DNA from: Streptomyces sp. Q6
GTDB lineage: Bacteria > Actinomycetota > Actinomycetes > Streptomycetales > Streptomycetaceae
Direction: 5' to 3'
DNA length: 64,000 nt
Assembly: GCF_036967205.1 (NCBI RefSeq)
Contig: NZ_CP146022.1
Span: 558,001 to 622,000, forward strand
Below the pieces are notes generated by a model. It was not told the origin of the DNA and did no database searches. It was given only the letters and a program-made list of their open reading frames with translations. Both the position numbers and the translations under genes were made by a program. Of this stretch, positions 11,506 through 25,613 are shown piece after piece. Each line of letters begins with the position of its first letter. Positions within the stretch are counted from its first letter, which is position 1.

Positions 11506-12558
11506 TCAGCGGTCGCGCGGCGCCGGCGCCGTCGACTCGCGCACCACCAGGCGGGGGCGGATCAGCAGGGAGCGGCCCGCGCCGGAGGTCGTCTCGATGC
11601 GGGTGCGGAGTTGCTGGAAGGTCTCGGCGGCCATCTCGGGGAGCGGCTGGCGGACCGTGGTGAGCGGGGGTTCGAAGAGTTCGGCGAGCAGGATGTCGTC
11701 GAAGCCGACCACGGAGACCTCGCGGCCCGCGCTGACGCCGGCGTCCCGGGCGCCGCGGCACACGCCGATCGCGCACATGTCGTTGATGGCGACGAATCCG
11801 GTGGGCGGCCGGGGCGCCGCGAGGAGTTCACGAGCGGCGGCGCGGCCCAGTTCGGCGGACTCCTTGTCACCGAACTCGCTGGTCGCGGCGCCCGGCCAGA
11901 CGACCGCGGAGGCCGGGTCGACGCCCGCCTCCTCCAGCGCGGCACGGAAGCCGCGCAGCCGCTCGCGGCGGTTGACACTGCTGACCGAACCGGAGACGAA
12001 CGCCAGCCTGCGGTGGCCGAGTTCGAGCAGGTGGCGGGTCGCGAGCTCGGCGCCCATCGCGTTGTCGACACTGATACTGGAGAGCGACGCCGGGTCGCCG
12101 GACTGGGCGGCCCGGTCGAAGGCGACCATCTTCAGCCCGCGCTTGAGCAGCGGCGCGACGTGATCGAGGGTGGGCAGCGACGAGCACAGGACGACACCGC
12201 TGACCCCGTCGGCGAGGAGTTCCTCGCCGTACTTGAGCTCGCGGGCCGGGTCGCGCTCGCTGTTGCAGAGCAGCACGTGGTAGCCCTCGGCGAGTGCCAC
12301 GGCCTCCAACTCCCGCGCCAGTGACCCCCAGAAGGGGTTGGCGACGGACGGGACGATCAGACCGATGACCTGGATCCGGCCGGTGCGCAACATCCGGGCC
12401 GCACGGTTGGGCCGGTAGCCGAGTGTCTCTATGACCTGCTCCACGCGGGCGAGGGTGGTGGGCTGCATACGGTCCGTGCGTCCGTTGAGGACATTGGAGA
12501 CCGTGCTCGCCGACACCCCTGCCGCCTGCGCGACTTGATGGATCGTTACCCCGCTCAA
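11506..12558 (-). CDS. LacI-family transcriptional repressor
   Basis: A 350-residue regulator. The N-terminal HTH (TIHQVAQAAGVSASTVSNVLNG) and hinge helix are followed by a periplasmic-binding-protein-like effector domain starting VIGLIVPSVANPFW. The effector domain includes VVLCSS, MVAFDRA, ISVDNAMGAELATRHLLELGH and VVGFDDILLAELFEPPLTTVRQP. The start is a TTG with GGAGGT nine bases upstream. It is divergent from the ABC/lyase operon across a 317-bp region with repeated CCGATTyAC words. It almost certainly represses that operon and itself, released by a sugar derived from the imported polysaccharide. Confidence 0.92.
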   Translation of the reverse strand: MSGVTIHQVAQAAGVSASTVSNVLNGRTDRMQPTTLARVEQVIETLGYRPNRAARMLRTGRIQVIGLIVPSVANPFWGSLARELEAVALAEGYHVLLCNSERDPARELKYGEELLADGVSGVVLCSSLPTLDHVAPLLKRGLKMVAFDRAAQSGDPASLSSISVDNAMGAELATRHLLELGHRRLAFVSGSVSSVNRRERLRGFRAALEEAGVDPASAVVWPGAATSEFGDKESAELGRAAARELLAAPRPPTGFVAINDMCAIGVCRGARDAGVSAGREVSVVGFDDILLAELFEPPLTTVRQPLPEMAAETFQQLRTRIETTSGAGRSLLIRPRLVVRESTAPAPRDR

Positions 12559-12602
12559 CGCCGTGCCACCTCCGGCTCGTCACGTCACTGTACGCAGCAG
12601 TG

Positions 12603-12632
12603 TACCGATTTACTAGACGAGGATCATCGGTT
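12603..12632. promoter_or_regulatory. Putative LacI operator O1
   Basis: TACCGATTTACTAG is followed 8 nt later by ATCGGT. It lies 45-75 bp upstream of the repressor start codon, a position suited to autoregulation. The left half matches the perfect operator at 12810 over GnACCGATTyACTA. Confidence 0.55.
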
Positions 12633-12714: not shown

Positions 12715-12720
12715 CACTGC

Positions 12721-12733
12721 ATCGATTTACCAG
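12721..12733. promoter_or_regulatory. Putative LacI operator O2 at the transcription start
   Basis: ATCGATTTACCAG sits at the predicted +1 of the operon promoter and shares CGATTTAC with O1 and O3. Binding here would occlude RNA polymerase. Confidence 0.5.
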
Positions 12734-12809: not shown

Positions 12810-12832
12810 GCACCGATTCACTAAATCGGTGC
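12810..12832. promoter_or_regulatory. Perfect palindromic LacI operator O3
   Basis: Arms GCACCGATT and AATCGGTGC (9 bp, perfect) flank a 5-nt CACTA spacer, 44 nt before the first operon gene. With O1 and O2 it makes three related sites over 230 bp, which suggests looping or cooperative repression. Confidence 0.7.
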
Positions 12833-12875
12833 ACCTCTCGACCATCTTGCTTCCTCGCCTCTTAAGGGGTGTCCC

Positions 12876-14147
12876 ATGGAACTCACGAGACGATCGCTGC
12901 TGGCCGCGCTCGGCGCGGGCACGGCCGCGGCGCTCACCGGCTGCGCCGCAGGATCCGACGCGGGCGGTTCGGCCGACGGACCGGCCAAGGGGGAGATATC
13001 CCTGCTCACCCCGATCTACGAGGGGGCGGACGGCAAGCAGCTCCTGGAGGGGAAGATCCTCCCGGCCTTCCGCAAGAAGTACCCGGACGTGACGGTCAAG
13101 GTCGACTACACGACGTACCAGCAGCTCAACGAGAAGATCACCACCGCCCTCGCCGGCGGCCTCCTGCCCGACGTCCTGATGCTCGGCGTGGGCTGGGTCC
13201 CGCCGTTCGCCGCGAAGAAGGTCCTCGCCGAGCTGCCCGAATCGCTCGCGGCGAAGTACGACTACGAGGACCGCGTCCTCGAACCCTCCCGCTACGACGG
13301 CAAGCTGTACGCCCTGCCCACCGTCATGGCCACCCGCCTCGTCGCCTACCGCAAGGACCACTTCGCGGCCGCCGGCATCAAGAAGCCCCCGGCGTCCCTG
13401 GCCGAACTGCGCGCCATGGCGAAGGAGTTGACCAAGGGCGACCGGATGGGCATGGACCCGTTCTCCATCGATCTGCGCCAGTGCTGGGAGACGTTCCTCT
13501 TCGCCAACGGCGGCTCGCTGTTCAGCGCGGACGGCAAGAAGCCCACGTTCACCGGCCGACGGGGCGTCGAGGCACTCCAGTTCTTCAAGGACCTGACGGC
13601 CGACGGCTCGGCGGACTACGCCCGGAAGACCGAGGCCGACGCGGGCGCCGCGACCAATCTGCAGCTCGGCAAGGCGTCGATGATGATGACCGGCAGCGGC
13701 CTGTGGAAGCAACTGACGGAGCAGAGCCCGGAGTTGATCGAGAAGGACCTGGTCGGCGCGTTCGTGCTGCGCGGCCGCAGGCCCGCGATGCTGACCGGCG
13801 GCACCCTCGTGTGCCAGTCGGCGCGCAGCCGACACGCGGCGGCCGCGCAGGCGTTGGTCGCTCACCTGGCCGCGCCGGACAACGTCCTCGCGGCGGCGAA
13901 GCAGCGGGCGACGGTGCCCGGCATCACGGCCCTGCGCTCGTCCTCGTACGTGAAGGGCAACAAGCTGGTCGACTTCTCCGTGCGGAACCTCGGCAGCGCC
14001 TGTGCCGAGGGCGGCACGCCCGCCTGGATGGAGATCCGCGAGAAGATCAAGCCGACGCTGGAGCCGGCCGTCGTGGGCGGCACGTCGGCGGCGTCCGCCA
14101 TCGCCGAACTGGGTGAGCTGGCCGAGTCGGCCATCTCGCGGCTGTGA
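12876..14147 (+). CDS. ABC sugar transporter, substrate-binding lipoprotein
   Basis: A 423-residue extracytoplasmic solute-binding protein (family 1). MELTRRSLLAALGAGTAAA is a Tat-compatible signal and LTGC a lipobox with lipidated Cys23. Mature landmarks are ISLLTPIYEGADGKQLLEG, KILPAFRKKYPDVTVKVDY, MLGVGWVPPF and the C-terminal PTLEPAVVGGTSAASAIAEL. It would capture oligosaccharides made by the secreted lyases and deliver them to the two permeases downstream. First gene of the operon, with AAGGGGTG upstream. Confidence 0.92.
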   Translation: MELTRRSLLAALGAGTAAALTGCAAGSDAGGSADGPAKGEISLLTPIYEGADGKQLLEGKILPAFRKKYPDVTVKVDYTTYQQLNEKITTALAGGLLPDVLMLGVGWVPPFAAKKVLAELPESLAAKYDYEDRVLEPSRYDGKLYALPTVMATRLVAYRKDHFAAAGIKKPPASLAELRAMAKELTKGDRMGMDPFSIDLRQCWETFLFANGGSLFSADGKKPTFTGRRGVEALQFFKDLTADGSADYARKTEADAGAATNLQLGKASMMMTGSGLWKQLTEQSPELIEKDLVGAFVLRGRRPAMLTGGTLVCQSARSRHAAAAQALVAHLAAPDNVLAAAKQRATVPGITALRSSSYVKGNKLVDFSVRNLGSACAEGGTPAWMEIREKIKPTLEPAVVGGTSAASAIAELGELAESAISRL

Positions 14148-14159
14148 GGGGCGACCGTC

Positions 14160-15119
14160 GTGGGAGCCGTCTCCGTACTCAAGACGCGGCCGCAGGCCGC
14201 GCCCGCTGAACCTCCGCGCCGCACCACCCGGCCCGTGCGCCGCACGGGGCCCGGGGCCCGGCGGCGTCGCGCGGGCATGCTCATGGTCGCGCCCGCGCTG
14301 CTGCACGCCGCGCTGTGGATCGGCCTGCCGGTCGTCGCCGCCGTGTACCTCGCGTTCACGTCGTACGACGTGCTGTCGGCACCGCGCTTCGTGGGCCTGG
14401 ACAACTTCCGGGACATGCTCGACGACGAGGTGTTCCGCAAGTCGATCGTCAACACCGTCGTCTACACGTTCTTCACGGTGCCGTTCGGGATGGCGCTCGG
14501 GCTGCTGCTGGCCCTCGCGCTCAACACCGGGCTGCGGGCGCGCGGGGTGTTCCGGACCGCGATCTTCCTGCCGCAGGTGACGGCGACGGTCGCGATCGCC
14601 CTGGTCTGGCTGTGGATCTACAACCCGCGCAACGGCCTGTTCAACACGTTGCTCGGCCTGTTCGGCATCGAGGGGCCCGCCTGGCTGGCGTCGACGTCGT
14701 GGGCGATGCCGTCGGTGATCCTCGTCGGGATCTGGCAGGGCATCGGCATGAAGATGCTGATCTACCTGGCCGCGTTGCAGACCCTGCCCAAGGACCTGTA
14801 CGAAGCGGCGTCGGTCGACGGGGCGTCTCCGGTCCGCCAGTTCTTCTCGATCACACTGCCCCTGCTCAAGCCCGCCACGTTCTTCGTCCTGATCACCTCG
14901 TTGATCGGCGCGTTCCAGTCCTTCGACCAGATCTACATCCTCACCGACGGCGGCCCGGCGGGCTCGACGACGATGATGACGTACGAGATCTACAAGTCGG
15001 CGTTCCGCGAGTTCCGCGTGGGATACGCCTGTGCCCAGTCGCTGGTGCTGTTCGTGCTCCTCATGGGGTTCACCCTGGTCAACCGCCGTGTCATGGGAGG
15101 CACTCGTGGCCACGACTGA
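14160..15119 (+). CDS. ABC sugar transporter permease (MalF type)
   Basis: A 319-residue inner-membrane permease with about six membrane spans after a basic cytoplasmic N-terminus. The EAA loop for ATPase docking is LYEAASVDGASPVRQFFSIT near residues 217-236. GTG start with GAGGGG upstream, 12 nt after the binding-protein stop. No ATPase gene is in the operon, as usual for Streptomyces importers that share the ATPase MsiK. Confidence 0.92.
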   Translation: MGAVSVLKTRPQAAPAEPPRRTTRPVRRTGPGARRRRAGMLMVAPALLHAALWIGLPVVAAVYLAFTSYDVLSAPRFVGLDNFRDMLDDEVFRKSIVNTVVYTFFTVPFGMALGLLLALALNTGLRARGVFRTAIFLPQVTATVAIALVWLWIYNPRNGLFNTLLGLFGIEGPAWLASTSWAMPSVILVGIWQGIGMKMLIYLAALQTLPKDLYEAASVDGASPVRQFFSITLPLLKPATFFVLITSLIGAFQSFDQIYILTDGGPAGSTTMMTYEIYKSAFREFRVGYACAQSLVLFVLLMGFTLVNRRVMGGTRGHD

Positions 15120-16008
15120 GATCGCGCGGCCGCGCTCCGAGGTCCGGCGGCCGCCGGCTCCGGGCCGGATCGCCCTGTACGTGACGCTGTCCGTGGTGTC
15201 GCTCCTGATGGTGGTGCCGTTCCTCTGGATGATCGTCACCTCGCTGAAGACACCGGCGGAGATCGCGTCCGAGCACGCCGGACTGCTGCCCGCGCACTGG
15301 GACTTCGGGAACTACGCGGACGCCTTCGAGGCGGCGCCGTTCGCGACGTACGCCCGCAACAGCTTCGTCATCGCGCTCAGCCACACCGTCCTCAACGTCG
15401 TCTTCGCGTCGATGGCCGGGTACGCGCTGGCCCGGATCCGTTTCCGCGGCAGCGAGTTCCTCTTCTACTGCTTCGTCGCCGCGCTGATGATCCCGACGTA
15501 CACGAAGGTCCTGCCGGAGTTCCTGATCGTGCGGTTCATGCCCCTGTTCGGCGGCAACGACCTGTTCGGGCAGGGCGGCAGCGGCTGGCTCGACTCGTGG
15601 TGGGCGCTGATCGTGCCGGGCGCCGTGACACCGTTCGCCGTGTTCCTGTTCCGCCAGTTCTACCTGGATCTGCCGGTGGAGCTGGAGGAGGCGGCGCGGC
15701 TCGACGGGCTCGGCGAGTTCCGCATCTACGCCCGCATCATGACGCCGCAGGTCAAGCCGGCCCTCACCACGGTCGCACTGCTGACCTTCGAGTCGTCGTG
15801 GAACAACTTCCTGTGGCCACTGCTCGTGACCCGCACCGACAGCCTGCGTGTCATCCAGGTCGGCCTGTCGGTCTTCAAGACGGAGAACGGCACGCAGTGG
15901 CACTTCCTGATGGCCGGCACGACGCTCGCGACGCTGCCGATGGTGCTCCTGTTCCTCCTCGGCCAGCGCTACTTCGTCCAGGGGTTCGCGCACACCGGCC
16001 TCAAGTGA
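15106..16008 (+). CDS. ABC sugar transporter permease (MalG type)
   Basis: A 300-residue partner permease. The GTG start at 15106 (MATTEIARPRSEVRR) has GGGAGG upstream and overlaps the previous stop by 14 nt, indicating translational coupling. Typical MalG features are PFLWMIVTSLKTPAEI, the EAA loop LEEAARLDGLGEFRIYARIM, and a C-terminal end LGQRYFVQGFAHTGLK. Together with the previous gene it forms the import channel. Confidence 0.92.
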   Translation: MATTEIARPRSEVRRPPAPGRIALYVTLSVVSLLMVVPFLWMIVTSLKTPAEIASEHAGLLPAHWDFGNYADAFEAAPFATYARNSFVIALSHTVLNVVFASMAGYALARIRFRGSEFLFYCFVAALMIPTYTKVLPEFLIVRFMPLFGGNDLFGQGGSGWLDSWWALIVPGAVTPFAVFLFRQFYLDLPVELEEAARLDGLGEFRIYARIMTPQVKPALTTVALLTFESSWNNFLWPLLVTRTDSLRVIQVGLSVFKTENGTQWHFLMAGTTLATLPMVLLFLLGQRYFVQGFAHTGLK

Positions 16009-16044
16009 ACCGACCGACTCCCCATGTTCTACGAAGGGTTCCGC

Positions 16045-16809
16045 ATGTCCAGTGATCTTCAGGGTTCCCGTGCGCTCGTGACGGGCGCGGGCCACGGCAT
16101 CGGCCGGGCCATCGCCGTCGCGCTCGCCGCGGCCGGCTGCGACGTCGCCGTGCACTACCGCAGCTCCGCCGACGAAGCGGCCCGCACGGTCGGCGCGATC
16201 GAACAACTCGGGCGCCGCGCCAAGGCGTTCCACGCCGATGTGACGGTCACGGCGGACGTCGACCGGCTCGTCACGGAGGCCGCCGACTTCCTCGGCGGGC
16301 TCGACGTGCTGGTCTGCAACGCGGGGCATCTGATCGGCCGGGCGACGGTCGCCGAGATGAGCGACGCGCACTTCGACCAGGTGCTCGACGCGAACCTCAC
16401 GTCGACGTTCCGTACGTGCCGTGCCGCGCTCCCCCATCTCACGGCCTCCCCCGCCGGGCGGATCGTCACCATGTCCTCGCTGGCCGCGCACAATGGCGGC
16501 GGCCCCGGTTCGGTGGCGTACGCCGCCGCGAAGGCCGGGGTGCGCGGCTTCACGAAGGCCCTGGCCAAGGAGGTCGCGGGGGCGGGCGTCACGGTGAACG
16601 CGGTCGCGCCCGGCTTCATCCGGGGCACCGCCTTCCACGACACGTTCACGCCGCCGCAGGCGCAGGAGACGATGGCGGCCGGCATCCCGGTGGGCCGCCC
16701 CGGCACGCCCGAGGACGTGGCGGCGTCCGTGGTGCACCTCGCGTCACCCGCGTCGGGGTTCCTCACCGGTACGACGCTGGACATCGACGGTGGCGTATGG
16801 CCCCGGTGA
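16045..16809 (+). CDS. SDR-family oxidoreductase, probable uronate-derived ketosugar reductase
   Basis: A 254-residue classical short-chain dehydrogenase. TGAGHGIGRA binds NAD(P), NAG precedes the active site, Ser is in VTMSSLAA, YAAAK carries the catalytic Tyr/Lys, and IDGGVWPR is at the C-terminus. Start ATG 16045 follows GAAGGG; the in-frame ATG 16024 lacks a ribosome site. In uronate-lyase operons such SDRs reduce the 4-deoxy-5-keto uronate (DEH) to KDG or act like KduD. That role is inferred from the neighbouring lyases, and a general 3-oxoacyl reductase cannot be excluded. Confidence 0.85.
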   Translation: MSSDLQGSRALVTGAGHGIGRAIAVALAAAGCDVAVHYRSSADEAARTVGAIEQLGRRAKAFHADVTVTADVDRLVTEAADFLGGLDVLVCNAGHLIGRATVAEMSDAHFDQVLDANLTSTFRTCRAALPHLTASPAGRIVTMSSLAAHNGGGPGSVAYAAAKAGVRGFTKALAKEVAGAGVTVNAVAPGFIRGTAFHDTFTPPQAQETMAAGIPVGRPGTPEDVAASVVHLASPASGFLTGTTLDIDGGVWPR

Positions 16810-18587
16810 GGCGGATCCCGCGCGAGCGGGGCGGCTGGTGGCACGCCTATGTGTGCCCCGCGCACGGCCTGGAGCTCGACCACGGCGATCCGCTGTCCGG
16901 AGTCTTCCCGGAGGGCGGCGCGCTGTGCGCCCGCGGCTGCCGGGTGGACACACCCGAGGTGCGGGGAGCCTGGACGGTCCTCGCGCACCAGGCGTGGGCG
17001 CGCCACGCCCGTCTGCTGGCGCTGCGCGGCGACACGGCGGGCACGCTCGGGATCCTGAGCGCGTACGCCGATCTGTACCGCGAGCTCGCGGGCGACGGGC
17101 ACGACGGGGCGCAGCCGTGGATGCTGCGTGGCCGGCTCTTCCACCAGGCGCTGACCGACGCGATCTGGGCGGTGAACGTCGCCGACGCCGTGGCGACCCT
17201 CGCGGAGCACGACGCGCCCAGAACGGCCGAACTCCTGCCGCTTCTGGCGGAGTTGGAGCGGGCGGCGCTCGACGCCCGTGACGTCCTGGTGGAACGCGGC
17301 GACCTCGCCTCGAACTACCTGACGTGGCTGACGGCGGCGGGGACCGGAGCGGGGCGGGCGGCCGCGCTGGTGCGCGGCACGCCGTGGGACGGCGCCAAGG
17401 AGTGGCTCGACGGGCCGCACGGCCTGTACGCGCACCTGCGGGCGTGCGTCGGGGACGACGGCTGGCAGTGGGAGGGCAGCACGTACTACCACGGCTTCGT
17501 CCTGCGGGCCGCGCTCCTGGCGCTCCGCGGATCCGATCCGGCCGCCCTGCCCGCCGATGTCGCCGCGCGGCTGACGGGCATGGTCGACGCCCTGGCGGTC
17601 CTCGCGACGGACGGCGGAGTGCTTCCGGCGCTGAACGACGGCCCGTACCGGAGGACTCCGCTGGCGCTGGAGTGGCTCGAACTGGCCGCGCTGGCCCAGC
17701 AGTTCGTGGAGTCGCCGCGCTGGGCGGAGGTCGCCGCGCGGGCCCGTACCGAGGCGGGCGCGGCGGACGACGGTCTGGACCGGGAGCTGTCCGGCTGGTT
17801 CGCCGGGCCGCCGCTGCCGGAGCGCTCCGCACCCGCGCCGGTGTCGGTCTTCGAAGAAGCGGGGTACGCGGTGGTGCGGGCGGCGGGGACGCACGCCGTC
17901 CTCTCCTTCGGCCCGCACGGCGGCTCCCACGGCCACCGCGACAAGCTGGCCCTGTCCCTGTACGGGCGGCTGGCCTGCTGGCAGCCCGACCCCGGCCAGG
18001 TTCCGTACGCGCACGCCGAGTTCCGTGACCATTACGCGTCGACGGCCGCGCATCCGGCGTTCCTGGTGGACGGCGCGGAGCAGGCGGAGTGCGCGGGCCG
18101 GCTGCTCGCGCGGGACGCCCTGTCGGTCACGGCGGAGGCCTCGGCCGCGTACGAGGGTGTGCGCGCGGTGCGCCGGGTGGAGGCGGGCCGCTGCCATCTC
18201 GTCGACGTCCTGACGCTGACCGTCGAGGACGGCCGGGAGCGGCGGCTCGCCGCCCTGCTGCGCCCCGGTGTCGCGCTCGACGTGCAGGTGCAGCCCCGAG
18301 GGCCGGTGCGGACCACGTGGTACGGGGAGAGCGAGGTGCTGCACGGCTGGCACCTGGCCTCGGAGCCGGTGCGGCCCGTGACGCGGCCCGGCCCCGGCCC
18401 GGCCGACGACCCCCACCTCACGCGCGCCTGGGTCGACTTCACCGCACACGGTGAGCGGCTCGTGCTCGTCTCGGTGTACCAGGCGGCGTCGCACGGGCCC
18501 GCGGTGACGGACGTGCGGATCACGGACGAGGGCGTCGTGGTGGAGCTCGCCGACGGGACGCGCGGCGTGCACGGGACGGGGGCCTGA
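16797..18587 (+). CDS. Heparinase II/III-like lyase, copy 1 (cytoplasmic)
   Basis: A 596-residue protein with an alpha/alpha-toroid first half and a beta second half. QWEGSTYYHGF (residues 224-234) corresponds to the EG-x-YY/W-x-x-G element of heparinase II/III, PL15 and PL17 enzymes. HGGSHGHRDKLALSLYG (from about 374) matches the heparinase II/III C-terminal domain H-x-H-x-D element. No signal peptide is visible, so it should cleave imported oligosaccharides inside the cell. The ATG at 16797 overlaps the SDR stop by 13 nt. The N-terminus WWHAYVCPAHG with CARGCR looks like a possible metal-binding insert. The catalytic Tyr/His set is only partly certain. Confidence 0.78.
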   Translation: MAPVRRIPRERGGWWHAYVCPAHGLELDHGDPLSGVFPEGGALCARGCRVDTPEVRGAWTVLAHQAWARHARLLALRGDTAGTLGILSAYADLYRELAGDGHDGAQPWMLRGRLFHQALTDAIWAVNVADAVATLAEHDAPRTAELLPLLAELERAALDARDVLVERGDLASNYLTWLTAAGTGAGRAAALVRGTPWDGAKEWLDGPHGLYAHLRACVGDDGWQWEGSTYYHGFVLRAALLALRGSDPAALPADVAARLTGMVDALAVLATDGGVLPALNDGPYRRTPLALEWLELAALAQQFVESPRWAEVAARARTEAGAADDGLDRELSGWFAGPPLPERSAPAPVSVFEEAGYAVVRAAGTHAVLSFGPHGGSHGHRDKLALSLYGRLACWQPDPGQVPYAHAEFRDHYASTAAHPAFLVDGAEQAECAGRLLARDALSVTAEASAAYEGVRAVRRVEAGRCHLVDVLTLTVEDGRERRLAALLRPGVALDVQVQPRGPVRTTWYGESEVLHGWHLASEPVRPVTRPGPGPADDPHLTRAWVDFTAHGERLVLVSVYQAASHGPAVTDVRITDEGVVVELADGTRGVHGTGA

Positions 18588-18588
18588 G

Positions 18589-20562
18589 ATGCTGCTGTCG
18601 GCGACCCCTCCCGCGGGCGAACGCCCCGTCCAGGAACGGAGGCTGCTCACCGAGGCCGGGCGTCACCGCGCCCTGGTGCCACCGTCGGCGCACCCGAGGG
18701 CGAGCATCACCTGGCTGGGTCCGGCCGCCGCGAACCCGGCGCTCGCGTACCGGGTGACCGGTGACCCCGCGCACCTGGCGGAGGCGGAGCGGTTCATCGC
18801 GGCGGCGGTCCGGTTCCCGCACTGGGGCCGGGCCCACATGCCCGACCACGACCTGGACGCGGGCTGGCTGCTGCACGGCCTCTCCCTCGCCCACCACTGG
18901 CTCGGTGACGCCCTCTCCCCCGACCTGCGGGACCTGCTGCGCTACAAACTCCTCGTCCAGGGGCGGCGGTTGTACGACTTCGCGGTGGCGACGGAGGGCC
19001 GCTGGTGGTCGTCGTCGTACTGGCAGAACCACAATTGGATCTGTTACGCGGGGCTCGCCACCGCCGGGTACGTGCTGGGCCGCGAGGAGTGGACACAGCG
19101 GGCGAAGGACAACCTGGGCCGGGTCCTCGACCTGCTGCCCGCGGACGGCTCGCACGCCGAGGGGGTCGTGTACTGGCGGTACGGGGTGCCGTGGCTGGCC
19201 ATCCACCTCGATCTGCTCCAGGAGTGCGAGGGCCTGGACTGGTGGGGGCGGGGCGGCTTCATGGAGCACACCTTCGACTTCCGGCTGCACCAGTCGGCGC
19301 CCGGGTTCGCGGAGCAGACGGGGCACGGGGACTGCCACGACCGGCGCAGCGGACACAGCACGGCGCTGTACCGCGGGCTCGCCGCGCGCTTCGGGATCGG
19401 TGAGGCACAGTGGCTCGCCGACCTCGTGGACCGTGAACTCCATGACGACGAGGCCGAGTTGAGCGGGGTGCGACCGGGGATCCGGGCCGAGGCGTATCTG
19501 GACCACCTCTGGTACGACCCGTCGGTGCCGGCGGTGCCCCCGTCGGCCACGCACGCGTACTTCCCCGATCTGGGGCTGCTCACGGCCCGGACCGGCTGGG
19601 ACGACACGGCGACGTTCGTGTCGTTCAAGGCGGCGCCCGGCGGCGGTCACCAGGCGTGGGAGGCGTCGGCGAAACTCCGGGCCGAGCTGGGCTGGGAGAC
19701 GCTCAACACCGGGCACCACCACCCGGACGCGGGGTCGTTCGTGCTCGCGTCGCAGGGCGCGTTCCTCGCCGTCGACGAGGGCTACAGCAACCGCAAGCGG
19801 GCCGCGCACCACAATCTGCTGCTCGTCGACGGGACGGGGTTCGCGGGCGAGGACCGCTACCACGTGTACGAGGATCTGCCGTACGAGCACCAGGCACGGA
19901 TGCGGGACGTGCTCGCCGAGGGCGGCTGGGCGCACGGCACCGCCGAGATCGGCGCGATGTACCCGCCGGAGCTGGGCGTGCGGCGTCTGGAGCGGACCCT
20001 GGTGTGCACGCCGTCCGGGCGGCTCGTGCTGCTCGACGAGGGGCGGGCGGACGTGCCGCGCGCGTGGACGTTCCTGTTGCAGACGGACGCGCCGACGCGC
20101 GACGACGGGGACGGCCGGCTGATCGCCGCCGGGGACGCGCGGGCGTGGCTGCGTGTGCTGTCGCCCGGTGACCCCGTGGTCGCGTCGGACGTGGTCGAGG
20201 TGGCCGCCAACCCCACGTCCAGCACACCGGAGTTGAGCATCGGAACCACGCTGCACACCCTGCGGGTGACGACGCCGGAGCGCACGCGCGCCGCCCGTTT
20301 CCTGACCGTGATCGCGCCGGACGCGCCCGGCGCGCGAGAGATCCCCGGAGGCGTGGCCCTCGACGTCGCCGGGGGCACGGAGAGGGTGCTCCTGTCCCCG
20401 GTGGACCGTCGCATCGAGGCGCCCGGTGTCACGGCCGACGCGGCGGCCGTGCTGCTCGCGCCCGGACGCGAGCCGTACGTCGTGGCGGCCCGCCGCCTGG
20501 TGCTCGACGACGGTGCGGTCCGGGAGTGGGCCGAGCCCTTCACCGGGGCGGTGACCCGATGA
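18589..20562 (+). CDS. Heparinase II/III-like lyase, copy 2 (cytoplasmic)
   Basis: A 657-residue paralogue of the previous protein with clearer active-site motifs. They are YWQNHNWI (residues 144-151), SHAEGVVYWRYG (188-199) and NTGHHHPDAGSF (373-384). The last matches the conserved His and metal/substrate element of PL15/PL17-type exolytic lyases. There is no signal peptide, which suggests cytoplasmic oligosaccharide breakdown to unsaturated monosaccharides. It starts one base after the previous stop, so the two lyases are made together. Two divergent copies may handle different linkages of one oligosaccharide. Confidence 0.83.
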   Translation: MLLSATPPAGERPVQERRLLTEAGRHRALVPPSAHPRASITWLGPAAANPALAYRVTGDPAHLAEAERFIAAAVRFPHWGRAHMPDHDLDAGWLLHGLSLAHHWLGDALSPDLRDLLRYKLLVQGRRLYDFAVATEGRWWSSSYWQNHNWICYAGLATAGYVLGREEWTQRAKDNLGRVLDLLPADGSHAEGVVYWRYGVPWLAIHLDLLQECEGLDWWGRGGFMEHTFDFRLHQSAPGFAEQTGHGDCHDRRSGHSTALYRGLAARFGIGEAQWLADLVDRELHDDEAELSGVRPGIRAEAYLDHLWYDPSVPAVPPSATHAYFPDLGLLTARTGWDDTATFVSFKAAPGGGHQAWEASAKLRAELGWETLNTGHHHPDAGSFVLASQGAFLAVDEGYSNRKRAAHHNLLLVDGTGFAGEDRYHVYEDLPYEHQARMRDVLAEGGWAHGTAEIGAMYPPELGVRRLERTLVCTPSGRLVLLDEGRADVPRAWTFLLQTDAPTRDDGDGRLIAAGDARAWLRVLSPGDPVVASDVVEVAANPTSSTPELSIGTTLHTLRVTTPERTRAARFLTVIAPDAPGAREIPGGVALDVAGGTERVLLSPVDRRIEAPGVTADAAAVLLAPGREPYVVAARRLVLDDGAVREWAEPFTGAVTR

Positions 20563-21167
20563 CGGCGGCCCTCACCCTCGGGGCGCGCGGCCGGCTGCTC
20601 GGGGTGCTCGAACGGATCGCCCAACCGGCCGCCGCGGGAGCCGCGTTCACCGTGCTCGCGCTCGGCGTGGTCACCTGGCTGCCCGCGCTGGCCGCCCTCG
20701 CGCACACCCTCCAGCGGTGGCGCTCCGACGGCGACAACCGGTCCTTCACCGGGGTGTTCGCCGCGTTCCCCCGGTACTGGCGCGCGCTGTGGCGGCAGGG
20801 GATCGTCGCCTCCGCCGCTGTCGCCGTGCTGGCCGTCAACTGCCTCTTCCTCAGCGGGCGTTCGAGCCCGTCCGCCTTCGTTCTCCTGTGCGCGCAGGCC
20901 GGTCTCGGTGCGGCACTCCTCGTGCACTGCACGGCCTTCGCGGCGCACGCGGGCCTCGCGCCCGACGAGCCGCCCGCGCGCTGGCACCGGCGGGCGCTGG
21001 CCCTGGCCTTCGCGTCGCCCGCGCGCGGCACCGCCCTGCTGGGCGCGGCCGTCTCCGCCGTCGTGTTCACCCTGCCCGTCCCGCTCGGTCCGCTGCTGTT
21101 CGGTCCGAGCGTGCCCGTCCTGCTCGCCCTGCACTTCGCCGCACCGCAACCAGAGAGGACCTCCTGA
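20559..21167 (+). CDS. DUF624 (YesL-like) membrane protein
   Basis: A 202-residue hydrophobic protein with about four or five membrane spans. VLALGVVTWLPALAALAHTL near residue 33 and the following RWRSDGDNRSFTGVFAAF match the start of DUF624/YesL proteins. YesL lies in the rhamnogalacturonan locus of Bacillus subtilis, and relatives often sit beside sugar ABC importers of family 1. The function is unknown. ATG 20559 overlaps the previous stop as ATGA. Confidence 0.75.
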   Translation: MTAALTLGARGRLLGVLERIAQPAAAGAAFTVLALGVVTWLPALAALAHTLQRWRSDGDNRSFTGVFAAFPRYWRALWRQGIVASAAVAVLAVNCLFLSGRSSPSAFVLLCAQAGLGAALLVHCTAFAAHAGLAPDEPPARWHRRALALAFASPARGTALLGAAVSAVVFTLPVPLGPLLFGPSVPVLLALHFAAPQPERTS

Positions 21168-22252
21168 TGTCCAGACGCATCCTGTTCGGCCTGGCTCTCG
21201 GCGCCTGCGCCGCGCTGGCCCTGCCCGCAGCGCCGGCCTCGGCCGCCTCCGCGTACTACGTCGGCCCGACCGGCAGCGACAGCAACGCCGGCACGTCGTC
21301 CGGCGCGCCGTTCGCCACGATCCAGCACGCGCTCGACGTGGCGCCGGAGGGCTCCACGGTCCACCTCGCCTCGGGCACCTACCTCCAGGACGTGGTGACA
21401 CGCCGCGAGAACGTCACCCTGACCGGCCCCTCCAGCGCCGTCGTCAAGGGAGCGGGCAGCACCCGGATCGTGCAGGTGCAGCACGACGGCACGGTCCTCG
21501 ACGGGTTCACCGTGGACGGTCTGTTCGGCTCGTCGAGCAGCGTGGCCGGATACCGCTCGAAGCTGGTCTACGTGATGAGCACGACCCCCGGCAACGGCGT
21601 CAACGCACTCACGATCACGAACATGCGGCTCAAGAACGCCGCCGACGAATGCCTGCGGCTGCGCTACCTCGTCACCGGCGCCGACGTGTCGGGCAACACC
21701 ATCAGCGACTGCGGTGTCGCCGACTTCAAGTTCGGCGGCGGCGGCAAGAACGGCGAGGGCATCTACCTCGGGACGGCGCCCGAACAGCAAGGGGCCAACG
21801 GCGCGCCCGACGCGGCGGCGGACGTCAGCAGGAACAACCGCATCCACCACAACACGATCGCCACGCGCGGCAACGAATGCGTCGACCTCAAGGAGAACTC
21901 CACCAACAACTACGTGGAGTACAACGACTGTTCGCAGCAGCGCGACCCCAGCTCGGGCGGGCTCGACGCGCGCGGCAGCGGCAACATCCTGCGCTACAAC
22001 ACCGTCCACGACAACGCGGGCGCGGGCGTGCGGCTCGGCGGTGACACCGCCACCGACGGCACGGACACGAGCGTGTACGGCAACACGATCACCGGCAACG
22101 CGAGCGGCGGCGTCAAGGTCATGCGCACCCCGCAGGGCCCGGTGTGCAGCAACACCATGAGCGGGAACACGGGCGGCGACGCGGTCGGCACGTACGGCGC
22201 CGACTACGACCCCACCGCCCCCTGCTCCGCGAGCGCCGGGGCCGCGTCGTGA
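21167..22252 (+). CDS. Secreted right-handed beta-helix protein, putative polysaccharide lyase
   Basis: A 361-residue protein with a Sec signal (SRRILFGLALGACAALALPA, cleavage near ASA-A). The mature start YYVGPTGSDSNAGTSSGAPF and TIQHALDVAPEGSTVHLASG is the DUF1565/PL6-PL9 beta-helix entry. Repeated coil strings follow, such as NNRIHHNTIATRGNECVDLK, NYVEYNDCSQQ, NILRYNTVHDNAGAGVRLGG and VYGNTITGNASGGV. The fold suits pectate, alginate or chondroitinase-B type lyases, but I cannot assign a family. It probably acts outside the cell on the same polymer as the PL8 enzyme. The start overlaps the previous stop by one base. Confidence 0.8.
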   Translation: MSRRILFGLALGACAALALPAAPASAASAYYVGPTGSDSNAGTSSGAPFATIQHALDVAPEGSTVHLASGTYLQDVVTRRENVTLTGPSSAVVKGAGSTRIVQVQHDGTVLDGFTVDGLFGSSSSVAGYRSKLVYVMSTTPGNGVNALTITNMRLKNAADECLRLRYLVTGADVSGNTISDCGVADFKFGGGGKNGEGIYLGTAPEQQGANGAPDAAADVSRNNRIHHNTIATRGNECVDLKENSTNNYVEYNDCSQQRDPSSGGLDARGSGNILRYNTVHDNAGAGVRLGGDTATDGTDTSVYGNTITGNASGGVKVMRTPQGPVCSNTMSGNTGGDAVGTYGADYDPTAPCSASAGAAS

Positions 22253-24636
22253 CCACCACCCGCCGCGCCGTCCTCGCGGGCACCGGCGCCGCGCTCACCG
22301 CGCTCGCCCTGCCGACACAACTGCTCGGTCCCGCGCACGCCGCGGACGGCGACCCCATCGCCGCGCTGCGGGCGCGGTGGCACACGCTGCTCACCGGCGG
22401 CCCCGGCCTCGACACGTCCGAACCGCGGATCGCCGCCGCGATCGCCCGGATCGACCGGGCCGCGGCGAGCGCCCTGACGGGCCTCGACCCGACGCGCGCC
22501 GACGGCCTGTGGCCCGACCTGACGAGCACGTCCGTGTCGAACCACGTCACCACGTCGTTCAAGCGGCTCTCGACCGCCGCCACCGCGTGGGCCGTGCCGG
22601 GCACGACGCGGTACCGCGACCCGGACCTCGCGGAGCTGCTCGCGCGCGGCGTCGACTGGATGCTGGAGCACCGCTACGGGCCCGGCCAGGTCCGCTTCGA
22701 CAACGACTGGGACTGGGAGATCGGCTCCGCCCTGGCCCTGAACGACACGGCCGTCCTGCTGTACGACGCGCTCGGCGCGGACCGGCTGACGCGGATCACC
22801 GACGCCGTACGTCACTACACGCCCGATCCGAACCTGTGGCGGGCGGACCGGCAGATCGCGACCGGCGCCAACCGTGTCTGGATCTGCACGGTCGTCGCGG
22901 TCAACGCGGTGCTGCGGGGCGCGGACGCGGACCTCGCGCGGGTGCGTGACGCCCTGTCGGACGTGGAGGGCGGCGGCGCGAACAGCGTGCTCGCCTTCCA
23001 GGACGAGGGGAGCGGCACGGGTGAGGGCTTCTACTCCGACGGCTCGTTCCTCCAGCACTACAAGCACCCGTACAACGGGGGCTACGGCAAGGAGCTGCTC
23101 GGCAATCTGTCCCGGCTGCTGAACCTGTTCGCCGGCACCGACTGGGAGCTGACCGACCCGGACGTCGCCCATGTACGGCAATGGGTGACGGACGGCTTCG
23201 AGCCGCTCATCGCCCGCGGTGACATGCAGGCGGGGGTCTGCGGCCGGGAGATCGCCCGCTCCAGCAAGCAGGGCCATGTCGCGGCTCAGACGGTGATCGA
23301 GGCGGTCCTGCGGCTCCTGCCCGGTCTGACCGGCGCCGACGCCGACGCCGACCGGTTCGCCGCGCTCGTCAAGCAGTGGATCACCGAGGACACGTACCGT
23401 GCCTTCCTCGACGTGACCGACCTCGCCTCGCTGGTGGCCGCCCAGCGGCTCCTCGCGTCCGGCACGAGACCACGCGGAACTCTCGTGACGCATCGTCAGT
23501 TCCCGCGCATGGACAAGGCGATGCACCATCGGCCCGCCTTCACGCTCGGCATCTGCGCCTACTCGACCCGCATCTACAACTACGAGTCCATCCAGAACGA
23601 GAACCTGCACGGCTGGCACCTCTCCGACGGCATGGTGCTCCTCCACGACGCGGACCTCGGGCACTACAGCGAGGACTACTGGCCGACCGTGGACCCGCTG
23701 CGCCTGGCCGGTACCACGGTCCTCGCCCGGCGTCCCGCCGACGCCGCGGGGCAGCGCACCACGAGCGCCGCGGACTGGGCGGGCGGCGCGGCACTGCCCG
23801 GCACGACGCTCGGCGCCTACGGGCAGGACCTGCGGGCGTTCGGAAGTTCGCTGCGGGCCCTCAAGAGCTGGTTCTGCCTGGACGACGTGATCGTGCACGT
23901 CGGTTCGGGCATCACGGCCGACACGGGACCGATCGAGACGGTCGTCGACAACCGCAAACTCCGTGACGTGGCAGCCGAGTTGACCGTCGACGGGGTGCGC
24001 GCACCCGCGGATGCCGGGTGGTCCGCCGCGTACGACGGCGTGCGCAGTGTGCATCTGGCCGGCACCGGCGGGTATGTCTTCCCGCGCCCGACCGCGCTGC
24101 GCGCCCTGCGCGAGCAGCGCACCGCCCGCTGGCGTGACATCAACATCAAGTACGGCACGGACACACCGGTCACCCGCCCCTATCTGACCCTGTGGCAGGA
24201 CCACGGCACCGCCCCGACCGGGGCGGGCTACTGCTGGCTGCAACTGCCCGGCGCCTCCGCCGACCGCACCCGGCGCCACGCGCTGGCCCCGCCCGTGCGG
24301 CCCGTCGCCGAGTCGACGGCCGTGCACGCGGTGCGGCGCGCGGCGGACGGCCTGCTGGCCGCCAACTTCTGGGCGGCGGGCCGGGCAGCTGAACTGGCCG
24401 CCGACGGGCCCGCGTCGGTCGTGGTCCGCCCGCGCGACGGGCTCGTGGACGTGGCGGTGAGCGATCCGACGCAGCTGCGCGAGCGGATCGTGCTCGACCT
24501 GGAACTGCGCGGCCTGAGCGTGGAGCGGGCCGACAGCGGGGTCGCCGTCTCCCGTACCTCGGCCGGCACCCGGATCACCGTCGACACCGCGGGCCGCCGC
24601 GGCGCGACGCTCGCGCTGACCCTGAGGAGGAGCTGA
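22249..24636 (+). CDS. Secreted polysaccharide lyase family 8 (hyaluronate/chondroitin/xanthan lyase type)
   Basis: A 795-residue exported lyase that cleaves uronic-acid glycans by beta-elimination. The N-terminus TTTRRAVLAGTGAALTALAL is a Tat signal. Active-site elements are N208 in TGANRVW, then H270 and Y279 in DGSFLQHYKHPYNGGYGKEL. The nine-residue His-Tyr spacing equals that of the Arthrobacter chondroitin AC lyase. Arg/His occur in FPRMDKAMHHRPAF (about 418-431). YESIQNENLHGW and EDYWPTVDPLRLAGTTV are PL8 hallmarks of the beta-sandwich half. GTG start overlaps the previous stop as GTGA. Which polymer is attacked cannot be read from sequence. Confidence 0.92.
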   Translation: MTTTRRAVLAGTGAALTALALPTQLLGPAHAADGDPIAALRARWHTLLTGGPGLDTSEPRIAAAIARIDRAAASALTGLDPTRADGLWPDLTSTSVSNHVTTSFKRLSTAATAWAVPGTTRYRDPDLAELLARGVDWMLEHRYGPGQVRFDNDWDWEIGSALALNDTAVLLYDALGADRLTRITDAVRHYTPDPNLWRADRQIATGANRVWICTVVAVNAVLRGADADLARVRDALSDVEGGGANSVLAFQDEGSGTGEGFYSDGSFLQHYKHPYNGGYGKELLGNLSRLLNLFAGTDWELTDPDVAHVRQWVTDGFEPLIARGDMQAGVCGREIARSSKQGHVAAQTVIEAVLRLLPGLTGADADADRFAALVKQWITEDTYRAFLDVTDLASLVAAQRLLASGTRPRGTLVTHRQFPRMDKAMHHRPAFTLGICAYSTRIYNYESIQNENLHGWHLSDGMVLLHDADLGHYSEDYWPTVDPLRLAGTTVLARRPADAAGQRTTSAADWAGGAALPGTTLGAYGQDLRAFGSSLRALKSWFCLDDVIVHVGSGITADTGPIETVVDNRKLRDVAAELTVDGVRAPADAGWSAAYDGVRSVHLAGTGGYVFPRPTALRALREQRTARWRDINIKYGTDTPVTRPYLTLWQDHGTAPTGAGYCWLQLPGASADRTRRHALAPPVRPVAESTAVHAVRRAADGLLAANFWAAGRAAELAADGPASVVVRPRDGLVDVAVSDPTQLRERIVLDLELRGLSVERADSGVAVSRTSAGTRITVDTAGRRGATLALTLRRS

Positions 24637-24638
24637 CC

Positions 24639-25613
24639 GTGCTGTTCGACATGCCGCTCGACCGGCTGCGGGAGTACCGGCCGGAGCCGGAGGAGCCCGC
24701 CGACTTCGACGCGTTCTGGCGCAAGACGCTCGACGACACCGCCCGGCACCCCGTGGACGCCCGCTTCGTGCCGTACGCGACGGGTCTCACGACCGTCGAC
24801 GTGTTCGACGTGACGTTCAACGGCTGGGGCGGGCAGCCCGTGAAGGCGTGGCTGCTGCTGCCGCGCGAGCGCTCCGGTCCGCTGCCCGCGGTCGTGCAGT
24901 ACATCGGCTACAACGGCGGCCGCGGCATCCCGTACTCCTGGCTGACCTGGAGCGCGCTCGGCCACGCCCATCTGGTGATGGACAACCGGGGTCAGGGCGG
25001 CGGCGGCAAGAACACCGCCGACACGCCGGATCTGGCGCCCGAGGGGCACGGCTCGTCGTCGCCCGGGTTCCTCACGCGCGGCATCGAGGACCCGCACCGT
25101 CACTACTACCGGCGGCTGATCACCGACGCCGTGCGGGCCGTGGACGCGGTGCGCGCGCACGACGCGGTCGATCCGGCACGCGTCGCCGTGCTCGGCGGCA
25201 GCCAGGGCGGCGGTCTCGCGCTCGCGGTGGCGGGGCTGCGCGACGACGTGGCGGCGACCGTCGCCGACGTGCCGTTCCTGTGCCACTTCCGGCGGGCCTC
25301 GCAGATCACGGACGCGGGACCGTACGCGGAGATCGCCCGGTTCCTGTCCGGGCACCGCTTCGGCATCGAGCGGGCGATGGAGACGCTGTCGTACGTCGAC
25401 GCGGTCAACTTCGCGGCGCGCGCGACGAGTCCGGCGTGGTTCTCGGTCGGCCTGATGGACAAGGTGTGCCCGTCGTCGACCGTGTTCGCCGCCTACCACC
25501 GCTATGCCGGGCCCGCCGAGATCGAGGTGTTCCCGTACAACGGGCACGAGGGCGGTGCCGAGTACGACCTGCCGCGCAAGATAGCCGCGCTGCGGGGCGT
25601 GTTCGGCACCTGA
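24639..25613 (+). CDS. Carbohydrate esterase family 7 (acetylxylan esterase/cephalosporin C deacetylase)
   Basis: A 324-residue alpha/beta hydrolase with all CE7 signatures: R117-G-Q, G186-G-S188-Q-G, D274 in GLMDKVCP, and H303-E. These give a Ser-Asp-His triad at nearly the same residue numbers as Bacillus acetylxylan esterases. It lacks a signal peptide, so it should remove acetyl groups from imported oligosaccharides. Start GTG 24639 lies 2 nt after the PL8 stop, with GAGGAG upstream. Last gene of the operon. Its presence implies that the target polymer is O-acetylated. Confidence 0.9.
   Translation: MLFDMPLDRLREYRPEPEEPADFDAFWRKTLDDTARHPVDARFVPYATGLTTVDVFDVTFNGWGGQPVKAWLLLPRERSGPLPAVVQYIGYNGGRGIPYSWLTWSALGHAHLVMDNRGQGGGGKNTADTPDLAPEGHGSSSPGFLTRGIEDPHRHYYRRLITDAVRAVDAVRAHDAVDPARVAVLGGSQGGGLALAVAGLRDDVAATVADVPFLCHFRRASQITDAGPYAEIARFLSGHRFGIERAMETLSYVDAVNFAARATSPAWFSVGLMDKVCPSSTVFAAYHRYAGPAEIEVFPYNGHEGGAEYDLPRKIAALRGVFGT

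Follow-up and report, generated by a model that had tools for sequence, protein, structure and literature searches.

A conserved ten-gene operon of Streptomyces that probably serves alginate utilization

Gene content and conservation of the locus

The window, the 64,000-nucleotide stretch of the Streptomyces sp. Q6 genome that was analyzed (contig NZ_CP146022.1, positions 558,001 to 622,000), contains a row of ten genes on the forward strand and a divergent regulator gene. These genes and three operator-like sites are listed here, numbered from the first base of the window.

11506..12558, minus strand: LacI-family regulator, divergent from the operon (Pfam LacI and Peripla_BP_3)
12600..12613, plus strand: putative LacI operator 1, GTGTACCGATTTAC (own-genome pattern search)
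12717..12730, plus strand: putative LacI operator 2, CTGCATCGATTTAC (own-genome pattern search)
12821..12834, minus strand: putative LacI operator 3, GTGCACCGATTTAG (own-genome pattern search)
12876..14147, plus strand: SBP, ABC importer solute-binding lipoprotein (Pfam SBP_bac_8/SBP_bac_1)
14160..15119, plus strand: ABC importer permease 1 (UgpA/MalF-like, under the cut-offs of those models)
15106..16008, plus strand: ABC importer permease 2 (BPD_transp_1)
16045..16809, plus strand: SDR, proposed DEH reductase (adh_short_C2)
16806..18587, plus strand: Hep1, cytoplasmic heparinase II/III-like protein, proposed oligo-alginate lyase (profile matches to alginate lyases)
18589..20562, plus strand: Hep2, cytoplasmic PL15/dermatan-sulfate-epimerase-like protein, proposed oligo-alginate lyase (profile matches and residues)
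20559..21167, plus strand: DUF624 membrane protein, possible importer accessory (DUF624; MusI_fam E 1.7e-4, under cut-off)
21167..22252, plus strand: secreted right-handed beta-helix protein, proposed PsAly-type poly-M lyase (residue pattern)
22249..24636, plus strand: PL8 lyase, Tat-type secreted, probable Aly16-1 ortholog (three PL8 domains; primer and identity evidence)
24639..25613, plus strand: CE7 acetyl esterase without signal peptide (AXE1 E 6e-106; RGQ, GGSQGG, and GHEGG motifs)

As an earlier note on this DNA had described, all ten genes are present and are joined by overlaps or short gaps (in order, 12, -14, 36, -4, 1, -4, -1, -4, and 2 bases). With gaps of -14 to 36 bases, a single transcript is therefore plausible. 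An alternative start of Hep1, an ATG at 16797, is possible. The family names given in the note held for nine of the genes, the exception being Hep2, which has no Hepar_II_III Pfam match; its only Pfam match, DUF4962, is under the cut-off, and it is heparinase-like through profile matches to PDB structures. Inspection by eye suggests export of three proteins, namely PL8 (with a Tat-like signal), the SBP (Tat/lipobox-like), and the beta-helix protein. Tat export had been claimed for both PL8 and CE7; this stood for PL8 only, since no signal peptide was seen by eye at the CE7 N terminus (VLFDMPLDRLREYRPEPEE), and CE7 is therefore probably cytoplasmic.

The arrangement goes beyond chance, as the same gene order recurs in other streptomycetes, a check that the note had suggested: among 199 genus genomes, it was found in 14 besides that of the window. 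One of these (L025) has no beta-helix gene, and several carry an extra gene ahead of PL8. The operon is intact in 15 of the 199 sampled genomes, with one further remnant. The ten-gene unit is conserved in Actinobacteria, and its core is found in many other Actinobacteria. For the related-locus set, the best 80 of 88 loci were kept. Loci L023 to L036 and L040 to L119 come partly from the same genomes and the two sets were not summed, except that the 47 PL8s used in the primer and boundary comparisons mix both sets and include some copies twice. One of 82 loci (L042) yielded no extracted Hep2.

The LacI gene, absent from the earlier finding, is present in 74 of 82 related loci. Searching the whole genome of the strain with the operator pattern returned four sites at no more than one mismatch (reversed-pattern control, 0), of which three lie upstream of the operon and the only other, with one mismatch, is at genome position 5820474. 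In LacI-SBP intergenic regions, CGATTTAC was found in 49/75 and CGATGCAC in 53/75, the window included. These findings suggest that the operon is LacI controlled, with the three sites as putative operators.

The secreted enzymes

The PL8 protein possesses three Lyase_8 domains and keeps N208, H270, and Y279, mapped via PDB alignment to the Asn/His/Tyr set that we take to be the PL8 catalytic triad. Its nearest solved structure is a xanthan lyase. At the positions of Tyr315 and Arg612, presumably the pyruvate-pocket residues of xanthan lyase, the window PL8 has Ser and Lys, and these changes are kept in its orthologs (32/33 and 33/33, respectively). The alginate lyase Aly16-1 was cloned with a published 19-nt forward primer, and 3 of 47 operon PL8s (L036, L054, and L064; L036 and L054 seem to be one record) match it exactly, just downstream of a signal-peptide-like stretch. 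Across 16 carrier genomes, the forward-primer pattern has one exact site, which lies in such a primer-matching operon PL8, and one site elsewhere with one mismatch. The window PL8 is 71 to 72% identical to the PL8s of this primer clade. Two further candidate identifiers were set aside as weakly discriminating: the reverse primer has 0 or 1 mismatch in 13/47 operon PL8s, including L036, L054, and L064, and the published domain-boundary residues, of which 5/6 agree after a fitted offset, fit 13/47 PL8s equally well.

Linked through the primer clade, the window PL8 is very probably an ortholog of Aly16-1, which it resembles in family, signal peptide, domain layout, and size (PMC11596371). Aly16-1, from Streptomyces sp. 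CB16, is endolytic and cuts poly-M at 15,284 U/mg versus 438 U/mg for poly-G; its substrates also include hyaluronan, chondroitin sulfates, and xanthan (PMC11596371). A fungal PL8 is likewise a poly-M lyase (PMC7911691). The available part of the Aly16-1 paper describes the enzyme only and contains none of the terms "operon," "gene cluster," or "locus" (PMC11596371).

The beta-helix protein was compared with PsAly, a poly-M lyase of beta-helix fold that we take to be a PL31 enzyme. PDB searches returned no sequence match between the two. The residues E181/Y184 and E216/D219/K221 of PsAly from Paenibacillus FPU-7 (PMC6796002) correspond to E197/Y200 and E237/D240/K242, so that counterparts of the catalytic Tyr184 and Lys221 and of the cation ligands Glu181, Glu216, and Asp219 are kept with the same spacing within each of the two groups. 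D267/R269 are perhaps the equivalents of D250/K252; the remaining sites fit in rough spacing only, and PsAly H154 and K252 are both Arg in the beta-helix protein. The five-residue pattern is invariant in 17/17 rows and occurs in 35/35 orthologs longer than 300 aa (the remaining three of the 38 proteins extracted are short) and in 52/200,000 shuffles. A relationship to PL6 was considered and rejected, as the profile comparison was weak (probability 10%), the lysine that we take to be catalytic in PL6 did not align with K242, and the PsAly pattern fitted better. We propose from these residues that the protein may be a PsAly-type poly-M lyase.

The cytoplasmic enzymes

The best profile matches of Hep1 are the alginate lyases 8bdd (presumably PL38), 7bjt (PL17), 9irq, and 4nei (PL17). 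Its predicted model (pLDDT 93) is helical in the N-terminal half and beta in the C-terminal half. Of the Asn-His pair that we assume for PL17, the Asn is kept as N170 and the His is replaced by Y171 in 43/43 rows, giving S-N-Y in place of the H-N-H of 8bdd, 7bjt, and 9irq. The N terminus bears Cys/His, unlike that of the PL17 enzymes 7bjt and 4nei or of 8bdd. Equivalents of PL17 Tyr258 and Tyr450 (PMC8286568) were placed in Hep1 without certainty. Hep1 is proposed as a PL17-like oligo-alginate lyase.

Hep2 matches human dermatan-sulfate epimerase (6hzn, 1e-30), the PL15 oligoalginate lyase 3a0o (3e-23), and PL35 9o3q (4e-15), and no signal peptide was seen by eye. Residues H148, Y195, H376, and Y399 are invariant in 40/40 rows. 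By profile alignment, the first three correspond to the PL15 triad H311/Y365/H531 (numbering of PMC8286568), and the catalytic His/Tyr/His of both 3a0o and 6hzn is thus kept. It is unlikely that Hep2 instead acts inside the cell as a uronate C5-epimerase converting M to G, with Hep1 as the sole oligo-lyase. Its closest solved structure is indeed the human epimerase (110 bits versus 85 for PL15), whose H205, Y261, H450, and Tyr473 are all kept; however, the H/Y/H residues are common to PL15 oligoalginate lyase, and epimerization would be of little gain to a pathway ending in DEH. Hep2 is therefore proposed to be a PL15-like oligo-alginate lyase.

The CE7 protein matches AXE1 and carries the RGQ, GxSQG, and HE motifs, which we take to mark the family. 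CE7 is encoded in 35/35 PL8-type loci versus 0/12 PL7/PL6 loci without PL8. Over 77 rows including the window, with the short-flank loci L045, L062, L067, L068, and L115 left out, the association with PL8 is 35/35 versus 3/42; supported branches give only two independent contrasts, and a sign test was not significant. An SGNH hydrolase gene found in loci of relatives is missing from the window locus.

The SDR is proposed to be a DEH reductase. Its best PDB matches are not DEH reductases; the DEH reductases 4w7i, 3afm, and 4tkl are 6th, 15th, and 20th among the 60 PDB matches listed, and 159 similar SDRs were found. Among the NCBIfam matches listed, only the FabG subfamily cut-off was passed, with KduD far under its own cut-off. 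Neither KdgF nor a KDG kinase is encoded by any of the ten operon genes. The genome encodes two KDPG-type aldolases (PF01081), and a PfkB kinase lies near the core in L065, L119, and L103.

Substrate and proposed pathway

In related loci, the core is accompanied by accepted alginate lyase families, with PL7 within the fetched flanks of 12/82 and PL6 in 4/82. Identity was established for one of each: the L071 PL7 matches polyguluronate lyase 1uai (E 3e-123), and the L069 PL6 matches alginate lyases at 1e-43 versus chondroitinase B at 2e-18. PL6 is additionally found in the PL8-type loci L043 and L074. In the window genome, no PL7 was found, in a search whose positive control was likewise without a match. 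The earlier note's claim that no GH88/GH105 gene is present was borne out: PF07470 has no match in the whole genome or in any of the 16 carrier genomes, compared with 48/199 genus genomes, in a search whose positive control matched in 3/14 known genomes.

These results bear on two other classes of substrate. PL8 is the classic family for hyaluronan, chondroitin, and xanthan, a xanthan lyase is the nearest solved structure, and Aly16-1 itself cuts all three (PMC11596371). We nevertheless reject a glycosaminoglycan or xanthan operon as extremely improbable, because GH88/GH105 is absent from all carriers, the xanthan pocket residues are changed in the window PL8 and its orthologs, and PL6 and PL7 occur in related loci; nor do the ten genes include an amino-sugar gene. 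A different homopolymer of uronic acid, for example acetylated glucuronan, could pass through the same DEH route, and any homo-uronan is compatible with chemistry free of GH88. PL8 enzymes cut at GlcA, and the closest solved relative of Hep2 acts on GlcA. In addition, glucuronan lyases make up one PL7 subfamily (PMC7911691). We judge this substrate improbable all the same, given that the L071 PL7 and L069 PL6 match polyguluronate and alginate lyases and that Aly16-1 prefers poly-M (PMC11596371). The available text on Aly16-1 does not list glucuronan among the substrates; the word occurs once, in the reference list (PMC11596371).

Collectively, it is likely that the locus is a LacI-controlled alginate-utilization operon. 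The pathway logic of the earlier note was upheld in part: the best reading is still that PL8 and the beta-helix protein cut outside the cell, that an ABC importer takes up the products, and that two internal lyases and an SDR act on them, and the substrate, which had been left open, is now read as alginate. PL8, and possibly the PsAly-like beta-helix protein, would cut mannuronate-rich alginate outside the cell to unsaturated oligosaccharides, which the SBP and two permeases would import with an ATPase encoded elsewhere. Streptomyces importers usually share the ATPase MsiK. Inside the cell, CE7 would strip O-acetyl groups, and Hep2 and Hep1 would convert the oligomers to unsaturated monouronate and hence DEH. 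The SDR would reduce DEH to KDG, and the route would be finished by a KDG kinase and a KDPG aldolase whose genes lie outside the operon.

Counted against alginate are the 24/77 loci (>6 kb downstream) without PL8, PL7/PL6, CE7, SGNH, and beta-helix genes, the Asn-Tyr of Hep1, the lack of a PsAly match, the FabG subfamily of the SDR and its best PDB matches other than DEH reductases, the lack of KdgF and KDG kinase in the operon and of PL7 in the genome, the poorly discriminating domain-boundary residues of Aly16-1, and the activity of Aly16-1 on hyaluronan, chondroitin sulfates, and xanthan. Data on polar isolates on alginate plates are also counted here; in the available part of that report, growth on alginate alone was seen for Proteobacteria and Bacteroidetes only, and 5.7% were Actinobacteria (PMC7874173).

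The co-occurrence of PL8 and CE7 (two contrasts, not significant) suggests an O-acetylated bacterial alginate as substrate, an idea that rests on CE7 and on the SGNH hydrolase gene of relatives. We offer only tentatively, as somewhat doubtful, the fuller proposal that the operon is dedicated to O-acetylated alginate of the Pseudomonas/Azotobacter matrix and that the core was converted elsewhere to nonacetylated, guluronate-rich algal alginate by swapping PL8 and CE7 (with SGNH) for PL7/PL6.

Discussion

The earlier note could match the gene combination to no described locus. Full-text literature searches likewise found no description of the complete ten-gene set in Actinobacteria; its parts are more familiar, as PL8 is very probably an ortholog of a characterized alginate lyase and the rest resemble standard oligo-alginate enzymes. 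The enzymes resemble known kinds, and the operon is probably a variant of known alginate systems. As proposed, it would share an endolyase, an importer, PL15/PL17 oligo-lyases, and the DEH to KDG to KDPG route with the reviewed systems (PUL, scattered, and the Sphingomonas A1 pit/ABC system), and ABC uptake is as in Sphingomonas A1 and as suggested for Firmicutes (PMC8286568). Unlike the systems described in the available part of that review, where "Streptomyces" and "Actinobacteria" occur 0 times, it is a single LacI-preceded actinobacterial operon that combines PL8, a beta-helix protein, and an acetyl esterase (PMC8286568).

The operon offers for testing an exchangeable endolyase module and two lyase-like proteins of the cytoplasm that have no curated family name. 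One of these bacterial proteins, Hep2, has human dermatan-sulfate epimerase as its best match among solved structures. If the proposal is true, an operon that is intact in 15 of 199 sampled genus genomes, and whose core occurs in many other Actinobacteria, would gain a function, and there would be a route by which soil bacteria could feed on alginate from the biofilms of other bacteria.

The operon and its putative regulator

The ten genes described in the earlier note as a single operon lie at 12876-25613 of the window (558001-622000 on contig 1 of the 8.95-Mb genome), all run in the same direction, and are joined by short overlaps or gaps of at most 36 bases. Most of the families named there were confirmed with Pfam and NCBIfam; the second heparinase II/III-like protein (Hep2), however, fell under every curated cut-off, and, as a correction to the note, the CE7 acetyl esterase has no signal peptide by eye. 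A divergent LacI gene is added here to the gene list. In the 75 regions between LacI and the binding-protein gene (SBP), the window counted, CGATGCAC occurred in 53 and CGATTTAC in 49. At one mismatch, GTGYAYCGATTTAC had four sites genome-wide, three of them between LacI and the operon; the pattern was partly derived from these very sites, so that their recovery was expected and the scarcity elsewhere is the informative part.

12600: putative LacI operator, between the LacI gene and the operon
12717: putative LacI operator, between the LacI gene and the operon
12821: putative LacI operator, between the LacI gene and the operon

The reversed GTGYAYCGATTTAC gave no site in the whole genome. We take this to mean that LacI represses locally, through putative operators of its own. 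Adjoining the LacI gene, 9644-11431 encodes a PBP4B-like serine hydrolase that looks secreted and carries an InhA-like MAM domain. This gene is retained beside LacI in several relatives and also beside the operon remnant described below, and is therefore probably a mere neighbour.

Conservation of the core

The earlier note had proposed looking for the same gene order in other Streptomyces. Hep2 was matched in 16 of 199 genus-sample genomes: Streptomyces sp. Q6 itself, 14 with identical gene order (except that locus L025 lacks the beta-helix gene), and one with mere fragments, which lie between the same outer neighbours as the intact operon. In this degraded copy, L037 (G057:C1:7278000-7297999), pieces of Hep2, a fragment of PL8 and a match to the beta-helix gene are all that was found. 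A sample of the phylum gave matches in 3 of 396 genomes (Q6 counted). A contig scan of one genome per species, of which the best 80 of 88 places were used, found carriers in Streptomyces, Kribbella, Micromonospora, Nonomuraea, Nocardiopsis, Salinibacterium, Isoptericola, Plantibacter and others, as well as one Chloroflexota and one Clostridia MAG. Across 82 loci (these 80 and two fetched; E 1e-15 plus a coverage filter), LacI was present in 74, the SBP in 76, the permeases in 77 each, the SDR in 78, the first heparinase II/III-like protein (Hep1) in 78 and DUF624 in 56, some misses being due to truncated contigs and DUF624 being short for the threshold. From these counts, the core is LacI-importer-SDR-Hep1-Hep2-DUF624, and the extracellular part is variable.

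The secreted PL8 and the proposed beta-helix lyase

The solved structure nearest to the window PL8 is a xanthan lyase. Residues aligned with the xanthan-lyase pyruvate pocket are changed in the window PL8 and in 32/33 and 33/33 orthologs. Aly16-1 of Streptomyces sp. CB16 is reported as an endolytic PL8 lyase that prefers poly-M and is additionally active on hyaluronan, chondroitin sulfates and xanthan (PMC11596371). An exact match to its published forward primer stands immediately after a signal-peptide-like stretch in 3 of 47 operon PL8s: L064 from Streptomyces sp. McG3, and L036 and L054, apparently one and the same S. anulatus record. When up to one mismatch is allowed, its reverse primer fits 13 of 47, the same three among them. 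A search of all 16 carrier genomes with the forward-primer pattern gave one exact site, in a primer-matching operon PL8, and one further one-mismatch site, elsewhere in another carrier. After a fitted offset, five of six published domain-boundary residues agree, which adds little because 13 of the 47 PL8s agree equally. Given the primer matches and the 71-72% identity of the window PL8 to four PL8s of the primer-matching clade, it is very probably, as judged from sequence, orthologous to an alginate lyase that has been characterised, the link to CB16 running through the published primers. A fungal PL8, PsMan8A, described as an exo-acting poly-M lyase inactive on alginate (PMC7911691), thus provides a precedent for PL8 on mannuronan. 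The Q6 genome has three further PL8 genes (G000:C1:8149842, 7473371 and 4442278) with 30-40% identity to the window PL8; that at 4442278 shares 62% identity with a second PL8 adjoining the core of Actinocatenispora L074.

For the beta-helix protein, the searches made gave no useful sequence match. The beta-helix poly-M endolyase PsAly is described with cation ligands E181, E216 and D219, catalytic Y184 and K221, and K128, H154, R156, D250 and K252 also in its active site (PMC6796002). In the window protein, E197-x2-Y200 and E237-x2-D240-x-K242 show the within-group spacing of PsAly; D267-x-R269, R164-x-R166 and K132 may match the remaining sites, by rough spacing, with Arg in place of H154 and K252. 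None of the ten positions varies (17/17 rows). The E..Y / E..D.K pattern, defined after reading the PsAly paper and with a loose gap, occurred in 35/35 orthologs longer than 300 aa versus 52 of 200000 shuffles. It was absent from all 482 proteins of eight further families encoded at these loci, and likewise from three additional beta-helix proteins. Because of this post hoc definition, the pattern is a strong lead rather than proof that the protein is a PsAly-like lyase. The protein is found in PL8-type and PL7-type loci alike.

Internal enzymes and downstream metabolism

Hep2 gave profile matches to epimerase 6hzn (1e-30), PL15 oligoalginate lyase 3a0o (3e-23) and PL35 chondroitinase 9o3q (4e-15), its nearest solved protein being human dermatan-sulfate epimerase. 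H148, Y195 and H376 align with the PL15 residues named as catalytic, H311, Y365 and H531 (PMC8286568), and, together with Y399, with H205, Y261, H450 and Y473 named for the epimerase (PMC8006597). All four are invariant (40/40 rows). Such residues would fit a lyase or an epimerase and cannot tell them apart; pathway context favours a lyase.

Hep1, confidently modelled (pLDDT 93), matched 8bdd (3e-15), PL17 7bjt (1e-11), 9irq and 4nei, then heparinase III. Compared with the aligned alginate lyases, it keeps Asn170, whereas Tyr171 replaces His (43/43 rows). At its N-terminus (window 16854-16940), Cys17, His20 and Cys45 (43/43 rows) and Cys41 (42/43) look like a small metal site. The SDR passed the NCBIfam FabG subfamily cut-off and failed that for KduD; DEH reductases A1-R' and A1-R stand at places 6, 15 and 20 among the best 60 PDB matches listed.

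GH88, already missing from the operon in the earlier note, was not found in the Q6 genome or in any of the 16 carriers (one being the remnant genome), versus 48 of the 199 genus-sample genomes; being related, these genomes do not count as independent observations. The Q6 genome encodes a KDPG-type aldolase, and a KDG-kinase-like PfkB gene lies near the core in three relatives (by Pfam for one). A PL7 search of the Q6 genome, run without a positive control, gave no match.

Variable endolyases and acetylation

PL8 is present in 35 of the 77 loci whose downstream sequence exceeds 6 kb; another 12 carry PL7 or PL6 without PL8, and the other 30 carry neither. The L071 PL7 matches polyguluronate lyase 1uai (E 3e-123), and the L069 PL6 matches alginate lyases (1e-43) and chondroitinase B (2e-18). 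Eight PL7 genes directly or nearly directly follow the core; in L084, PL7 sits on the opposite strand, some 8 kb downstream, and the Micromonosporaceae loci L065, L114 and L119 have PL7 and a partial PL6 on the far side of LacI. PL6 additionally occurs in two PL8-type loci, L043 (partial, at the locus edge) and L074. On the Hep2 tree, endolyase labels are clustered, yet change several times; it therefore seems that the endolyase module was swapped around a core that remained in place.

Right behind the core, L084 (12690-16655), L085 and L088 encode large secreted-looking proteins, heparinase-like by eye, that may be another endolyase type; in that of L084, Pfam finds fibronectin repeats only. 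F5/8-type-C plus beta-helix proteins occur near the core in L100 (14607-16568) and between Hep1 and Hep2 in L120 (6811-9591). Several PL7-type carriers (L069, L071, L077, L081 and kin) are, going by their names, presumably marine or sponge isolates, which, if true, would suit algal alginate.

CE7 was present in 35/35 PL8 loci, 0/12 PL7/PL6 loci without PL8 and 3/30 loci with neither. In 29/35, 1/12 (other strand, some distance off) and 1/30, respectively, there was also an SGNH hydrolase, which looks exported by eye in the four relatives whose copy was translated; the window and its closest relatives lack this gene. Bacterial alginates are described as often O-acetylated on mannuronate, unlike brown-algal ones (PMC8286568). 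Together with the mannuronate preference of Aly16-1, the occurrence of CE7 and SGNH with PL8 suggests that the natural substrate is bacterial alginate. Against this, the CE7-PL8 link amounts to only two independent contrasts on supported branches, which is not significant, and other acetylated oligosaccharides are substrates of CE7 enzymes as well.

Discussion

The earlier note could match the operon to no described locus, and we found no description among the top-listed matches of searches in the open full-text literature; an earlier one in subscription journals or preprints is possible. A review of how bacteria metabolise alginate, published in 2021, contains neither "Streptomyces" nor "Actinobacteria" (PMC8286568); among polar isolates from alginate plates, growth on alginate alone is reported for Proteobacteria and Bacteroidetes (PMC7874173). 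Streptomyces PL7 alginate lyases are already known (PMC8621082). The locus is real, conserved and explicable, most likely as an actinobacterial alginate operon with PL8 as its endolyase. Its most interesting points are acetylated bacterial alginate as a possible substrate and whether Hep2, with a human epimerase as its best solved match, is a lyase.
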